From Methanobacteriota archaeon (lineage in GTDB: Archaea > Halobacteriota > Methanosarcinia > Methanosarcinales > Methanosarcinaceae), in assembly GCA_016841625.1 (NCBI GenBank), contig JAENYU010000002.1, positions 10,041 to 72,480 of the forward strand: a stretch of 62,440 nt of DNA, given 5' to 3'. The translations under genes were made by a program, and so were the position numbers. Within the stretch, counting starts at the first letter, position 1, and each line of letters starts with the position of its first letter. Of the stretch, positions 21,516-27,024 are shown in pieces. The notes below the pieces were generated by a model that was not told the origin of the DNA, made no database searches, and saw only the letters and a list, made by a program, of their open reading frames with translations.

Positions 21516-21544
21516 CATTTCACAATTTTTCCCCCCATAATCAC

Positions 21545-21623
21545 TTACCTCAGAATCAGTTACCTTAGAATCAGTTACCTCAGAATCAGTTACCTTAGAA
21601 TCAGTTACCTTAGAATCATTTTT
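21545..21623. repeat. 15-bp tandem repeat
   Basis: Five copies of TTACCTTAGAATCAG or TTACCTCAGAATCAG (period 15 bp) fill the spacer after purL. Confidence 0.93.
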
Positions 21624-21729
21624 CTATGCTTGCTCTGGATTTTATCAGAAGTTCCCAACCCTTTCCTCCAATCCGGCAATGTGGGAAACAATAGGTATTA
21701 GTACCTCAACCCTACATCATAATTATGTT

Positions 21730-23001
21730 ATGAAAGCGGTATGCGTATGCGGGGGGGTGCACTTGCCTTACAGTCCTAAATGGTACTGGCCTGTAGAAGG
21801 TTTTTCAGGGTTACCTGAACCCAACCGATACTTTGATATGGAGCATATTTTCTTGCGGTTTCAGGAAACCGGAAGGGAGATGCTTCACCTTAACGACCTG
21901 TTGCTGGAGTCCATAGAAGGAGGAGGCAGATATGCCCTGAACCTCTCGGGGCTTTTCCTGGAACAATGTCGGTGGAACCCGGAACTTGTTGATTCCTTCC
22001 GGGAACTCGGAGAAAACGGAGGCGTGGAATTTACAGGGAACTGTTACTACCACTCCCTGAGTGCCCTTTACCCGGACCTGGCCGGGTTCAGGGAAGAGGT
22101 GTTGAAGCATAGAGAAATAAGCCAGGAAATGCTTGGCGTTACCCCGGAAACTTTCATAAACACCGAACTCCTGCTTTCCGGGAAATTGGGGAAGTTACTT
22201 TCGGGGATGGGGTTCAAATGCCTTATTGCCGAAGGCTCTTCAAATCTAACTAACGGATATGACCCGGTAAATGTCTACGAAAATGATCTTCCGACCCTGC
22301 TCAGGCATATAAACCTGAGTGAAGACCTCGAACTCCGTTTCTCGGAAAAAAGCTGGGAAGGCTACCCCCTGATCCCGGAAAAATTTGCTGACTGGATCAG
22401 CAGCATGGAGGGAGATGTCCTTACGCTTTGTTTCAACTACAGTAGCCTCTATTTCCATCACAGGAAAAAGAGTCTGGTTGTCGACTTTATCCGGGAGCTT
22501 CCGGAGAGACTTGAAGAAAGGGGGATCAGCATGCTTACACCTTCGGAAGCTGCAAAGCATTTTAAGCCTGTAAAACTTCCCACCCTGAAGACCGAGCAGA
22601 CTATCCGCTACGGGATGCACAATGTCCTGGGGAATAAGGCCCAGCAGCTCTATTTGAGGGAACTCGTACAGATAGGGGAGGAACTTGAAGAGGCAGGAAG
22701 GAAAGGAAGCCCGAACTACGGAAAACTGAAGAGGGTTTTCGGCTACCTCCAGCAAGGCGACATCCTCTTTTCCATGAATTCCGGGGAAAACATAAGGGAA
22801 GGATACGAGAGAGCTGTTAATTATTATTCCATCCTCTCGGATTTCAGGAGAGCTGTTCTGGAGGAAAGTACTGTTACAGAGGAGAACACTATTCCAGAGG
22901 AGAAGGCTGCTACAGTAGAAAGTACTGTTCCGGAGAAAAGGGTTATTCCAGAGGAGAAAGCTGTCCCGGAGAAAATGGCTAATCCAGAGGAGATAGCATG
23001 A
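21730..23001 (+). CDS. GH57-like protein, probably catalytically inactive
   Basis: The 423-residue protein aligns along its length with the neighbouring GH57 enzyme, so it belongs to that glycoside hydrolase family. The family's N-terminal HQP-type motif is degraded (GVHLPY), the nucleophile region keeps a Glu (FINTELLLSG, about residue 155), but the motif 4 acid/base region reads FNYSSLYFHH where the partner has MDYETFGEH, losing the Asp. I infer a pseudoenzyme or a glucan-binding partner. The last 45 residues are a charged EEK/PE-rich tail built from repeats. ATG 21730 has no clear SD. It overlaps the next gene by 4 bp (ATGA). Confidence 0.85.
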   Translation: MKAVCVCGGVHLPYSPKWYWPVEGFSGLPEPNRYFDMEHIFLRFQETGREMLHLNDLLLESIEGGGRYALNLSGLFLEQCRWNPELVDSFRELGENGGVEFTGNCYYHSLSALYPDLAGFREEVLKHREISQEMLGVTPETFINTELLLSGKLGKLLSGMGFKCLIAEGSSNLTNGYDPVNVYENDLPTLLRHINLSEDLELRFSEKSWEGYPLIPEKFADWISSMEGDVLTLCFNYSSLYFHHRKKSLVVDFIRELPERLEERGISMLTPSEAAKHFKPVKLPTLKTEQTIRYGMHNVLGNKAQQLYLRELVQIGEELEEAGRKGSPNYGKLKRVFGYLQQGDILFSMNSGENIREGYERAVNYYSILSDFRRAVLEESTVTEENTIPEEKAATVESTVPEKRVIPEEKAVPEKMANPEEIA

Positions 23002-24194
23002 CATCCCTTTGCCTTTATTTCCAGATACACCAGCCATTCCGCCTGCGCTGGTTCTGGCCAGATGACAGGACCGGTTTTTTCCGCTATTTCGATGAAAGAG
23101 GAGATCGAGAGATTTTTAAGAGAGTAGCCGAAAAATGTTACCTGCCTGCCAACAGGGTTCTCCTGGAAGCCCTGGACGAGCACAGAGGAGAATTCAAATT
23201 CGCCCTTTCGGTGACAGGGACTCATCTGGAGCAGTGCGGGCTCTGGGAAGAAGAAGTGCTCGAAGGCTTCAGAGAGATGGCGAAAACCGGAGCTGTGGAG
23301 TTCCTGGACGAGACCTGTTACCATTCAATCTCGAGCCTTTTTGAGGATAAAACGGAATTTATCGAAGAGATAAGGGAACACCGCAAGCTCATGAAAGACC
23401 TTCTCGGAGTAAAACCCGAAGTGTTCCGGAATACAGAGCTACTTTACAATAACACGATAGGAAAAATTGCCTCGGATCTCGGATACAAAGCAATCCTTAC
23501 GGAAGGTGCGGACCACATGCTCGGCTGGAGGTCCCCGAACTTCGTGTACGAAGCAACGGGTTCCGGAATACCGATCCTCGTCAGGAACTACAAGCTGAGC
23601 GACGATATAGGGTACCGTTTTTCGGCCCGTTGGTGGGAAGGCTACCCCCTGACTGCGGAAAAATGGGCTCAATGGGCTTCCGGCATCAGGGAAGACTGCA
23701 TCAACATTTTTATGGACTATGAGACTTTCGGGGAGCACCAGTGGGAAGAAACAGGCATCTTTGCGTTTCTGAAAAAATTCCCGGAGAAAGTCTTAGAGAC
23801 TCATTTGAATTTCGATACCCCCTCGGATGTTGTGAAAAAATATACTCCAGTAGCGGAAATCGATGTAGGGGACTTTTCCACCATCTCCTGGGCGGACATG
23901 GAACGTGACACCAGCGCCTGGCTGGGAAACGATATGCAAAGACGTTGTTTTGAAGAGATCAAACTTCTCGAACCTTTTGTGAAAAAAACCGGGGACCCGG
24001 AACTCCTGAACATCTGGAAACACCTGCTGACCTCGGACCACTACTACTACATGTGCACAAAATGGCTCGGAGACGGGGACGTTCATTCTTACTTCAGCGT
24101 ACACCCAACACCCTTTGATGCCGGAGTAAATTTCATGGCCGCATTGATGGACTTTAAGGCCAGGGTGTTCAGGAAACTCAACGCAATAGCTTAA
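22998..24194 (+). CDS. GH57 glycoside hydrolase (alpha-amylase-like)
   Basis: The 398-residue protein is a GH57 enzyme, probably intracellular since no signal peptide is visible. Motif 1 appears as FQIHQPFRLRW, the expected nucleophile Glu lies in FRNTELLYNN (about residue 150), and the acid/base Asp in FMDYETFGEHQW (about 243). GH57 members act as alpha-amylases, branching enzymes or 4-alpha-glucanotransferases; the GH15 glucoamylase downstream suggests glycogen-like glucan breakdown. The start overlaps the degenerate GH57 paralogue, implying coupled translation and possibly a heterocomplex. Confidence 0.92.
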   Translation: MTSLCLYFQIHQPFRLRWFWPDDRTGFFRYFDERGDREIFKRVAEKCYLPANRVLLEALDEHRGEFKFALSVTGTHLEQCGLWEEEVLEGFREMAKTGAVEFLDETCYHSISSLFEDKTEFIEEIREHRKLMKDLLGVKPEVFRNTELLYNNTIGKIASDLGYKAILTEGADHMLGWRSPNFVYEATGSGIPILVRNYKLSDDIGYRFSARWWEGYPLTAEKWAQWASGIREDCINIFMDYETFGEHQWEETGIFAFLKKFPEKVLETHLNFDTPSDVVKKYTPVAEIDVGDFSTISWADMERDTSAWLGNDMQRRCFEEIKLLEPFVKKTGDPELLNIWKHLLTSDHYYYMCTKWLGDGDVHSYFSVHPTPFDAGVNFMAALMDFKARVFRKLNAIA

Positions 24195-24232: not shown

Positions 24233-25042
24233 ATGGTTCGGGACTTATGCTTGTTTGCAGGCTACAACGAGGACACACAGATCGTATGGTTTAAGATCTC
24301 GTACTCAAAAGGTCGTGGCGTACTGCCTGCGATAATTAATTTCCTGGAAGAACAGGATGTACTCATAATGATCGGGCATCTTGACAATATGAACCAGGAA
24401 ACAGGAGAGTATTCCATCTTCACCGAAATTAGAAAAGAAGTTGACCTGGACGAACTTTCCCGTAAAATAGGGGAGTTGGAAGTTGTCCAGCAGGTGGAAT
24501 ACGGGATTTCGGAACACAGGATGATTCATCTGGTGGACTTCCCCTTGAATGTGATAGGGGTCCGGGCAATCATTGCTCGAGCTCCTACCCTTGTTGATAT
24601 CATCAGGACCCTGAATGAGAGTGCCCCGCATGCCGAGGGCCTGCTCACCCTTTCAGGCCTGCGGGGAGGGATCCATGCTGCAAAGTATTTCAGGAGCATC
24701 ATGCCCCTTGACGATAAAAACTTCACCAGTATCCTGACAGAACTTTACAGGGCTGTTGGCTGGGGCATCCTGGAAATCGATTGTGACCCCGAAACCTTTG
24801 AGGGAAAGATCATTGTAAGGGATTCCTTCATTGCAGACGTCTACGGGGAAACGGATCAGCCGATATGTGCCTACATGAGCGGGTACTTCGCAGGGTACCT
24901 GACCGAATACTCCGGAAAGAACATCAGGGTCAGGGAAGTCAGTTGTAAAGCCACGGGACATGAGGTCTGCGAACATATCATCTCCCCGGCCCCATCCGGT
25001 GAAAAGCAGGAGCATGTGATCACGAGAGGGGTAAGCAGGTGA
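24233..25042 (+). CDS. V4R-domain sensor protein in glucan operon
   Basis: The 269-residue protein has an N-terminal ACT-like half (KGRGVLPAIINFLEEQDVLIMIGHLD with GEYSIFTEIR) and a C-terminal V4R domain, seen in SFIADVYGETDQPICAYMSG and AGYLTEYSGKN, ending in CKATGHEVCEH with the paired cysteines common to V4R proteins. V4R domains bind small hydrophobic ligands or tetrapyrrole-like compounds and often act in regulators. No HTH is visible, so it probably senses a ligand and acts by protein contact. Its TGA overlaps the GTG start of the glucoamylase. Confidence 0.85.
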   Translation: MVRDLCLFAGYNEDTQIVWFKISYSKGRGVLPAIINFLEEQDVLIMIGHLDNMNQETGEYSIFTEIRKEVDLDELSRKIGELEVVQQVEYGISEHRMIHLVDFPLNVIGVRAIIARAPTLVDIIRTLNESAPHAEGLLTLSGLRGGIHAAKYFRSIMPLDDKNFTSILTELYRAVGWGILEIDCDPETFEGKIIVRDSFIADVYGETDQPICAYMSGYFAGYLTEYSGKNIRVREVSCKATGHEVCEHIISPAPSGEKQEHVITRGVSR

Positions 25043-27024
25043 TCAAACAACCCAATGTCATTTTAGGAAATGCCGAACTGCTCGTGACCATGGGCAGGAA
25101 GGGAGAACTCTTCGGCTTTTTTTACCCACGGAGAGACCACGCCCAGCATATCGATGAGTCTCTTGCCTGCATCCATACTGGAGAAACTCTCCTCTGGACA
25201 AACAGCAATGACTGGCAATCGATCCAGAACTACATAGAGGACACAAACATCGTGTCCACAAAGCTTTACCATGATTCGGGAATCCGGATTTCGATCCTGG
25301 ACCTGGTACACCCTGACGTCCCGGTTCTCATCCGCAGGTTCAAGATCCAGTCCCAGAAAAAAATTTCCGGGAAGTTTTACTACTATTCGAACTTCAACGT
25401 GGGGGAAACTTCAAAGAAAAATTCAGGTTACTGCGACACAAACGCCCGCATGATAGTGCAGTACTGGCAGGACTACTATATCGGAATCCACTCCATGCCC
25501 GAGTTTTCGGAATGGCAGATAGGAAAAGCAATGGACACCATCTGGTGGACGAATTCCAGGTACGACATGGAAGACGGGAAACTCCAGAATAATAAGGAGG
25601 ACATCGGGAACATAAACAATGCTGCGGGCTGGGAACTCGAACTGGAAGCAGACGGCACCAAAGAGTTTGTGATTTTCGTGGGCGCTGCCCCTTCCCGCAA
25701 CCTCCTGTACAAGCGGATGCACGAACTTGCAAAACTGCCCCTTGAACAGATCTTCGAAAAGACCAGGGAACACTGGGTTATGTGGCTGTCCAAAAAACAG
25801 GTGCTGAAAATGTCGGGCCTCGAAGGTTACAACAACCTCCGCCAGGAACTTTTCAACGCCTACAACCGCGCCCTGCTCACGCTCTACCTTATGAACGACC
25901 ACGAAAACGGCTCCTTTGTGGCCGCCCCGGAATTTGATTCCAACTTTGAGAAATGCGGAGGGTACGGTTTTTGCTGGAACCGTGACAGTTCCGAAGTGGT
26001 GCTCGCCCTGAAACATTCAGGTTATCCCGAATATTGCGACAGGTTTTTCAGCTGGTGCATCAGGACCCAGCTCCCCGACGGATCCTGGTTCCAGCGCTAC
26101 TGGCTGGATGGGAATAAAGCCCCTTCCTGGGGCAACTTTGATTATTCCACCCAGATCGACGAAACCGGTTCAACCCTCTATGCCATGGACGTCTATTACA
26201 GGACCCTGGAAGGCCTGAAAAAAATAGAGTTCCTGGAAGAAGTCTGGATTTCGGTGCTGCGAGCTGCCGAATACCTGATGAAAAGGACCAAAACGGGGCT
26301 GCATGAAAGCTGCATGGACCTCTGGGAGACATACTACGGAATTTTCACCTATACGAACGCCTCAGTCTATGCAGGGCTTGTGGGGGCTTCCAACCTGGCT
26401 GAGGAAAATGGAGAAGCAGGACTGGCCCGGCGCTGGAAAAAGCGAGCTGAGTTTATCAAGCAGGCTACCATCGACCGCTTCTGGCTCCAGGAAGGTTATT
26501 TTGCAAAAGGGGTCGTAAGCGAAAAGCTGGACAAGACCCTGGACGCAAGCGTCCTGGCCACCTATATCCCCTTCGGGATGCTCTCCCCCCGAAAACCTGT
26601 AGAAAGGGACATGATCTTCTTCCTTATCGAAAACATCCAGAAAAAGCTATCCAGCCCGGTAAACCGGCACTATGGGATCAAACGCTACGAAAACGACGCA
26701 TACATCAACGGGAACCCCTGGATTGTGACCACCCTCTGGCTCTCGGAAGTCATGTTTGCCCTTGCCCTGGACCTTCCTTACGAAGAAGAAAAAGACCTGC
26801 ATGAAGAGACCCGGAAAAAGCTGACCGAAGAAGGGATCAGGTTCCTGAAATGGGCTCTTGCGGGCACGACCAGTGCAGGGCTCCTTCCCGAACAGGTGGA
26901 CAAGTCCACAGGTAAGCCGGCCTGGGCAATTCCCCTGGGCTGGAGCTGTTCCCTCATGCTTGACAACATCCTTCTCCTGGACAAAATCTGCAGGCGAAAA
27001 GCCGGAAGTGAGACCGAAGGTTGA
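25039..27024 (+). CDS. GH15 glucoamylase
   Basis: At 661 residues this is a GH15 family glucan 1,4-alpha-glucosidase with an N-terminal beta-sandwich domain (about 1-270) and a C-terminal (alpha/alpha)6 barrel. Motifs include FCWNRDSSEV (about 315), DGSWFQRYW, the proposed general acid Glu in DLWETYYGIFTYTNA (about 432), and the base Glu in GLLPEQVD followed by PLGWSCSLML. It releases glucose from alpha-glucan ends. No signal peptide is seen, fitting use on stored intracellular polysaccharide. It starts with GTG, overlapping the V4R gene by 4 bp. Confidence 0.94.
   Translation: MIKQPNVILGNAELLVTMGRKGELFGFFYPRRDHAQHIDESLACIHTGETLLWTNSNDWQSIQNYIEDTNIVSTKLYHDSGIRISILDLVHPDVPVLIRRFKIQSQKKISGKFYYYSNFNVGETSKKNSGYCDTNARMIVQYWQDYYIGIHSMPEFSEWQIGKAMDTIWWTNSRYDMEDGKLQNNKEDIGNINNAAGWELELEADGTKEFVIFVGAAPSRNLLYKRMHELAKLPLEQIFEKTREHWVMWLSKKQVLKMSGLEGYNNLRQELFNAYNRALLTLYLMNDHENGSFVAAPEFDSNFEKCGGYGFCWNRDSSEVVLALKHSGYPEYCDRFFSWCIRTQLPDGSWFQRYWLDGNKAPSWGNFDYSTQIDETGSTLYAMDVYYRTLEGLKKIEFLEEVWISVLRAAEYLMKRTKTGLHESCMDLWETYYGIFTYTNASVYAGLVGASNLAEENGEAGLARRWKKRAEFIKQATIDRFWLQEGYFAKGVVSEKLDKTLDASVLATYIPFGMLSPRKPVERDMIFFLIENIQKKLSSPVNRHYGIKRYENDAYINGNPWIVTTLWLSEVMFALALDLPYEEEKDLHEETRKKLTEEGIRFLKWALAGTTSAGLLPEQVDKSTGKPAWAIPLGWSCSLMLDNILLLDKICRRKAGSETEG

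Follow-up and report, generated by a model that had tools for sequence, protein, structure and literature searches.

GH57 enzymes use a Glu in CSR-3 as the nucleophile and an Asp in CSR-4 as the proton donor. The family also includes proteins termed "alpha-amylase-like", for which a 2011 paper by Janecek and Blesak is reportedly the defining account. They are a described category with incomplete catalytic machinery, lying near the alpha-amylases with one or both catalytic residues replaced; in the parts of the source available to us they are treated as a sequence group, and a fixed pairing with an active paralogue, shared deletions or an operon context was not found there (PMC6037648). Among archaeal GH57 proteins, AmyA of S. 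acidocaldarius sits in a glycogen operon, and deletion of amyA abolished glycogen accumulation, which complementation restored (PMC8158581). The GH57 glycogen branching enzymes (P. horikoshii, T. kodakarensis and T. thermophilus) have the same catalytic barrel but carry a BE_C domain (PF09210). Outside the family, the plant isoamylases ISA1 and ISA2 combine an active and a dead paralogue in alpha-glucan metabolism; these are eukaryotic GH13 proteins of unrelated origin, and their complex has been shown by experiment (PMC3787081), whereas the complex that we propose below is a prediction.

Here we describe two overlapping GH57 genes from a Methanosarcinaceae genome, the first (ps) encoding a paralogue with a degraded active site and the second (ac) an alpha-amylase-type protein. 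By motif comparison, ac resembles both AmyA and the M. jannaschii-type archaeal GH57 alpha-amylase, with HQP, NTE, MDYETFGEH and CSR-5 intact. In the open-access papers searched, which do not include the 2011 paper, we found no description of the pair and its conservation, of the deletions common to ps proteins or of the gene junction.

Two overlapping GH57 genes and their active sites

The window (the whole stretch of DNA analysed, 62,440 nucleotides) is part of contig C35. The genome measures 3.76 Mb, is 99.7% complete and has no GH57 genes other than ps and ac (Table 1). The TGA stop of ps sits inside the ATGA that opens ac. Both proteins score well above the PF03065 (GH57) cut-off of 21.2 bits, with ps covering profile positions 28-288 of 291, which places it in the family. 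They share 31% identity across approximately 400 aa in pairwise alignment, and a profile-profile alignment between them spans 373 columns (E 1e-82). The original prediction, made from the sequence alone, had described overlapping genes encoding full-length homologues, and both points were borne out. An upstream ATG at 21679 would give a longer ps ORF, but relatives favour the start at 21730 (MKAVCVC) used in that prediction. In the spacer upstream of ps (window positions 21539-21618), a 15-base unit, AATCAGTTACCTTAG, occurs five times in tandem with a 93% match.

Table 1 Features of the ps-ac locus, in window coordinates.
Feature	Position	Strand	Basis or remark
ps, GH57 paralogue with degraded active site, 423 aa	21730..23001	+	PF03065, 194.5 bits; start by alignment with relatives; model
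Nucleophile-position Glu146 of ps, retained (INTELL)	22165..22167	+	Aligned with Glu147 of ac
Asn236 of ps, replacing the acid/base Asp	22435..22437	+	Aligned with Asp240 of ac; N/K/R/S/D in relatives
RYG motif of ps, at the ac CSR-5 core SWADMERD	22606..22614	+	Five residues deleted in all ps
C-terminal tail of ps, low-complexity, Pro/Glu-rich, repeat-encoded	22879..22998	+	36-base and 18-base repeats; repeat-encoded C-terminus within 22861-22998; disordered in model
ATGA overlap, ps stop and ac start	22998..23001	+	ORF coordinates; common to 58/65 pairs
ac, GH57 alpha-amylase-type protein with full catalytic set, 398 aa	22998..24194	+	Pfam, 285.8 bits (PF03065); model
Nucleophile Glu147 of ac	23436..23438	+	Invariant in alignment A2
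Acid/base Asp240 of ac (MDYETFGEH)	23715..23717	+	Invariant in alignment A2
CSR-5 SWADMERDTSAW of ac, core missing from ps	23886..23921	+	Alignment
Loop KWLGDGDVHSYFS of ac, deleted in ps	24060..24098	+	Alignment
V4R-domain protein; many relatives have it between ac and GH15	24233..25042	+	PF02830, 67.5 bits; conserved position
GH15 glucoamylase/oligosaccharide amylase	25039..27024	+	TIGR01577, 935 bits (cut-off 821)

Structural modelling against characterised GH57 proteins, proposed as a check on the original prediction, placed both proteins in the family fold. The ps model (pLDDT 83, pTM 0.81) forms a (beta/alpha)7 barrel, and its matches to GH57 amylopullulanases reach Z 29-31 and extend across more than 330 residues; the ac model (pLDDT 84, pTM 0.87) matches the GH57 fold with Z of approximately 30. 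The pLDDT of ps falls below 50 from residue 392, in the C-terminal tail. Relatives of ps from the same genus also have long C-termini, with total lengths of 416-440 aa, and those from other genera are mostly approximately 375-390 aa and end before the tail region.

Sequence searches of solved structures with ps gave no residue-level match covering the catalytic residues, so its catalytic positions were set by alignment to ac together with published GH57 motifs. All five GH57 conserved regions are present in ac, in which Glu147 (FRNTELL), Asp240 (FMDYETFGEH), HQP and the SWADxERDxSxW pattern of CSR-5 are invariant in the alignment. The corresponding motifs of ps are HLP, FINTELL with Glu146, and FNYSSLYFHH with Asn236, and the core of CSR-5 is absent. 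FNYSSLYFHH in place of MDYETFGEH had been noted in the original prediction; CFNYSSLYFHH and FMDYETFGEH align without gaps, which pairs Asp240 with Asn236. We also considered whether the catalytic Asp of ps had moved to another aligned position, which would have spoken against the original prediction, but the ungapped alignment holds no other Asp there. Two parts of that prediction were overstated. GVHLPY had been read as the loss of HQP, and the Gln is indeed changed, but His and Pro are kept. The first protein had likewise been said to lack catalytic residues; the acid/base Asp is gone, but this wording is too strong because the nucleophile-position Glu146 is retained in CSR-3.

The larger differences lie in two deletions. 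At CSR-5, SWADMERD..W of ac is reduced to RYG.. in ps by the loss of five residues, and ps is also without the DGDVHSYFS loop that lies within KWLGDGDVHSYFS of ac. Judged from the alignments, these segment deletions speak more strongly for inactivity than the D-to-N change alone does, and they are absent from the original prediction.

The ps clade and its distribution

We assembled 65 ps and 74 ac sequences, all distinct; both deletions recur in every ps protein of this set, and both segments are present in ac proteins. The RYG motif is well kept among ps relatives (R in 63/65, Y in 60/65, G in 61/65), and the Glu146 position is Glu in 59/65. In ps, the counterparts of Glu242 and Glu246 in CSR-4 of ac are mostly or wholly replaced. 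Several residues are fixed in ps and differ from ac, for example His193, Phe219 and Gln342 (65/65), Arg293 (63/65), Tyr294 and Gly295. Part of the pocket is conserved in ps (His11 together with the unchanged Gln79, Asn144, Glu168, Arg192, Asp199 and Trp209), and the catalytic pocket varies between genera.

A tree of 72 proteins, comprising 30 ps and 42 ac or outgroup sequences, recovered ps as a single clade (support 100/100) and the ac proteins of pair-bearing families as another (100/99), in a three-way split whose root is not fixed. The nucleophile and acid/base letters are ED in all 42 ac and outgroup proteins. Among the 30 ps they are EN in 12, EK in six, ED in five, QN and DD in two each, and ER, QD and ES in one each. 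At least seven changes are required at the Asp position within ps; Asp changed to N, K, R or S and Glu to Q or D more than once. In the deepest ps, those of families f2 and f3, the Asp is still present, with Glu changed to Asp in f3, and some deep members retain both Glu and Asp; all carry the deletions. Because both deletions are found in 65/65 ps, the clade as a whole looks catalytically dead, Asp-bearing relatives included. The simplest reading of these sequences is a single early loss of activity through loop loss, followed by drift of the catalytic letters. With the root of the tree not fixed, the best explanation for the origin of ps appears to be a duplication at or before the Methanosarcinales ancestor. 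With its Asp replaced and its clade beside alpha-amylase-type proteins, ps fits the definition of the GH57 alpha-amylase-like proteins.

The search for the pair in other genomes that had been suggested as a further check found it widely. With a cut-off of E 0.001, ps has a match in 95 of 112 Methanosarcinaceae genomes, and in nearly all of these two matches lie side by side, ps before ac; ps occurs in three Methanosarcinales families in total (f1, f2 and f3: Methanosarcinaceae and two further). It adjoins ac wherever the contig permits a view, and the junction has the same form in 58/65 pairs, an ATGA with ten codons from there to the HQP His. Chance adjacency was rejected given this constant junction and its conservation across the order. 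In two genomes (G001 and G111) ac alone was seen, but since it lies 89-239 bases from the contig end, ps may simply be cut off.

Outside the three families, ps was not detected in a sample of 393 genomes from the phylum, a handful of which list at least two GH57 matches; as this is a sample, wider absence is not proven. Genomes of the sampled phylum outside these families have as a rule one GH57 match, with the weaker score expected of ac. Their archaeal GH57 alpha-amylases differ from ac in being encoded as a rule by a single gene with no ps partner, and often have a C-terminal extension, with ORFs near 500 aa. Among the outgroup genomes L145-L167, solo ac-type proteins are often approximately 500 aa, about 100 aa longer than ac of pair-bearing families. 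When bacterial and archaeal genomes were scanned by pattern, only close relatives matched (Methanosarcina and Methanosarcinaceae). An ANME-like family of the same order (f4) has an ac-type gene without ps (L104-L109), which indicates that an ac-type protein can do without this partner. In L104, a divergent protein with a GDE_C domain is encoded next to the solo gene, on the opposite strand.

Glycogen genes and the branching question

Downstream of ac, the start of the GH15 gene overlaps the stop of the V4R gene by 4 bases. The V4R protein is a possible ligand-sensing regulator of the glycogen genes. The gene order in other genera is glycogen synthase (PF05693), GalT-like, GT4/5, ps, ac, (V4R), GH15 and GH133 debranching enzyme. 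In L058-L061, from several genera, CorA, DUF432 and MscS-type channel genes (families identified in L058) lie between GT4/5 and ps. The 95 Methanosarcinaceae genomes that match GH57 are the same 95 that have a strong match to the GH133 debranching enzyme, and 94 of them have an orthologous GH15, though the 112 genomes are not independent events and some are incomplete. In the 17 genomes without GH57, GH133 and GH15 are absent beyond weak paralogue matches. The genomes without the module belong to four genera; two of these, g9 and g14, also hold module-bearing genomes.

In the source genome we found a debranching enzyme at G000:C14, synthase-like genes at G000:C24 and no GH13 match. Among module-bearing Methanosarcinaceae genomes, 65/95 have no GH13 match. 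The BE_C domain was found in none of 186 Methanosarcinales genomes, the source genome included, in searches whose positive controls matched; ps and ac therefore differ from the classical GH57 branching enzymes, which carry it. A 2024 review proposed that archaeal GH57 "amylases" are perhaps the missing branching enzyme in glycogen-makers without a classical one (PMC11046441). With a debranching enzyme present and GH13 and BE_C lacking, this proposal and the amyA phenotype make the ps-ac pair the most obvious branching candidate. We offer only tentatively, as a rather doubtful reading, that ps and ac are the two subunits of an archaeal glycogen branching enzyme, where the dead barrel would hold the acceptor or donor chain for ac. 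An alpha-amylase role is just as possible as a branching role.

Proposed role of ps

We consider ps to be probably a non-catalytic GH57 paralogue that acts as an obligate partner subunit of ac in glycogen turnover. The two proteins would be translated together via the ATGA junction, and this coupled translation would give rise to an obligate complex. The ps barrel retains the GH57 fold and some of the pocket, and the acid/base residue and two active-site loops have been lost. The most likely task of ps is therefore to bind or position a chain of alpha-glucan, to stabilise ac, or both, with the chemistry carried out by ac. Here we infer the physical complex, the binding of glucan by ps and the reaction of ac, whether alpha-amylase or branching. 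A dead GH57 pocket can hold glucan, as GH57 amylopullulanase mutants D352N and E256Q/L have been crystallised with bound oligosaccharides (entry titles). The pocket of ps differs from genus to genus, and this speaks against a single ligand conserved at the active site. The pair may act together with the neighbouring GH15 and, elsewhere, with the GH133 and glycogen synthase genes. In an analysis of rate covariation, the partial correlation between ps and ac given GH15 was 0.65, and those of the other two pairs were 0.45 and 0.23; this covariation is modest and partly phylogenetic, as the kinship signal was not wholly removed. Together with the junction, the joint retention of the two genes and the ISA1/ISA2 precedent, it lends the proposed complex indirect support.

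Other explanations can be set against this one. In close pairs, dN of ps is up to approximately 3-fold that of ac, as might be expected of a functionless duplicate in decay. However, across 16 pairs ps shows dN/dS values of 0.03-0.20, well below 1 in all of them (0.03-0.12 for ac, with ps often higher), and therefore ps is not a decaying copy. It is also kept across three families, with no stops inside the domain among the aligned copies, and we regard decay as ruled out for all practical purposes. An active ps with altered chemistry would combine Glu146 with a new acid, for example from the conserved RYG region. The retention of Glu at this position in most relatives and the fixation of His193, Arg293, Tyr294 and Gly295 are in keeping with such an enzyme, but it appears quite improbable given that Glu has become Q or D in several lineages, that the Asp position has no fixed replacement, and that two active-site segments are missing throughout.

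The partly conserved pocket and the glycogen operon context would also suit a free-standing glucan-binding or regulatory protein, one that reports the glycogen state or anchors enzymes with no stable complex with ac. We think this unlikely, since the fixed 4-base junction and constant adjacency point to a fixed-ratio partner of ac and not a free sensor. Alternatively, ps could be mainly a folding partner, the heterodimer serving for ac stability only. The co-translation junction is compatible with this role, and a precedent exists in ISA2, a dead isoamylase needed for the stability and activity of ISA1-ISA2 (PMC3787081). Yet ac-type genes occur elsewhere without ps, and the partial conservation of the pocket together with the ps-fixed residues suggest more than packing, so that a role restricted to folding seems very improbable. 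That ps is a pseudoenzyme paired with an active GH57 protein, as originally predicted, is well supported by the deletions found in every ps, by the fact that Asp and Glu were lost repeatedly and in this clade alone, by the purifying selection and by the invariant linkage. The further suggestion of that prediction, that ps may bind glucan or scaffold the active subunit, would be in keeping with the genetics.

If the dead twin is needed in Methanosarcinales, tests of the active subunit alone could miss the true activity. An obligate ps-ac complex would be a prokaryotic parallel to the pseudoenzyme heteromer of plant ISA1/ISA2. Should the pair prove to be a branching enzyme, it would fill the branching step in those Methanosarcinales that have a debranching enzyme and are without GH13 or a BE_C-type GH57. 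Methanosarcina is genetically tractable, and the role of the pair is therefore directly testable.
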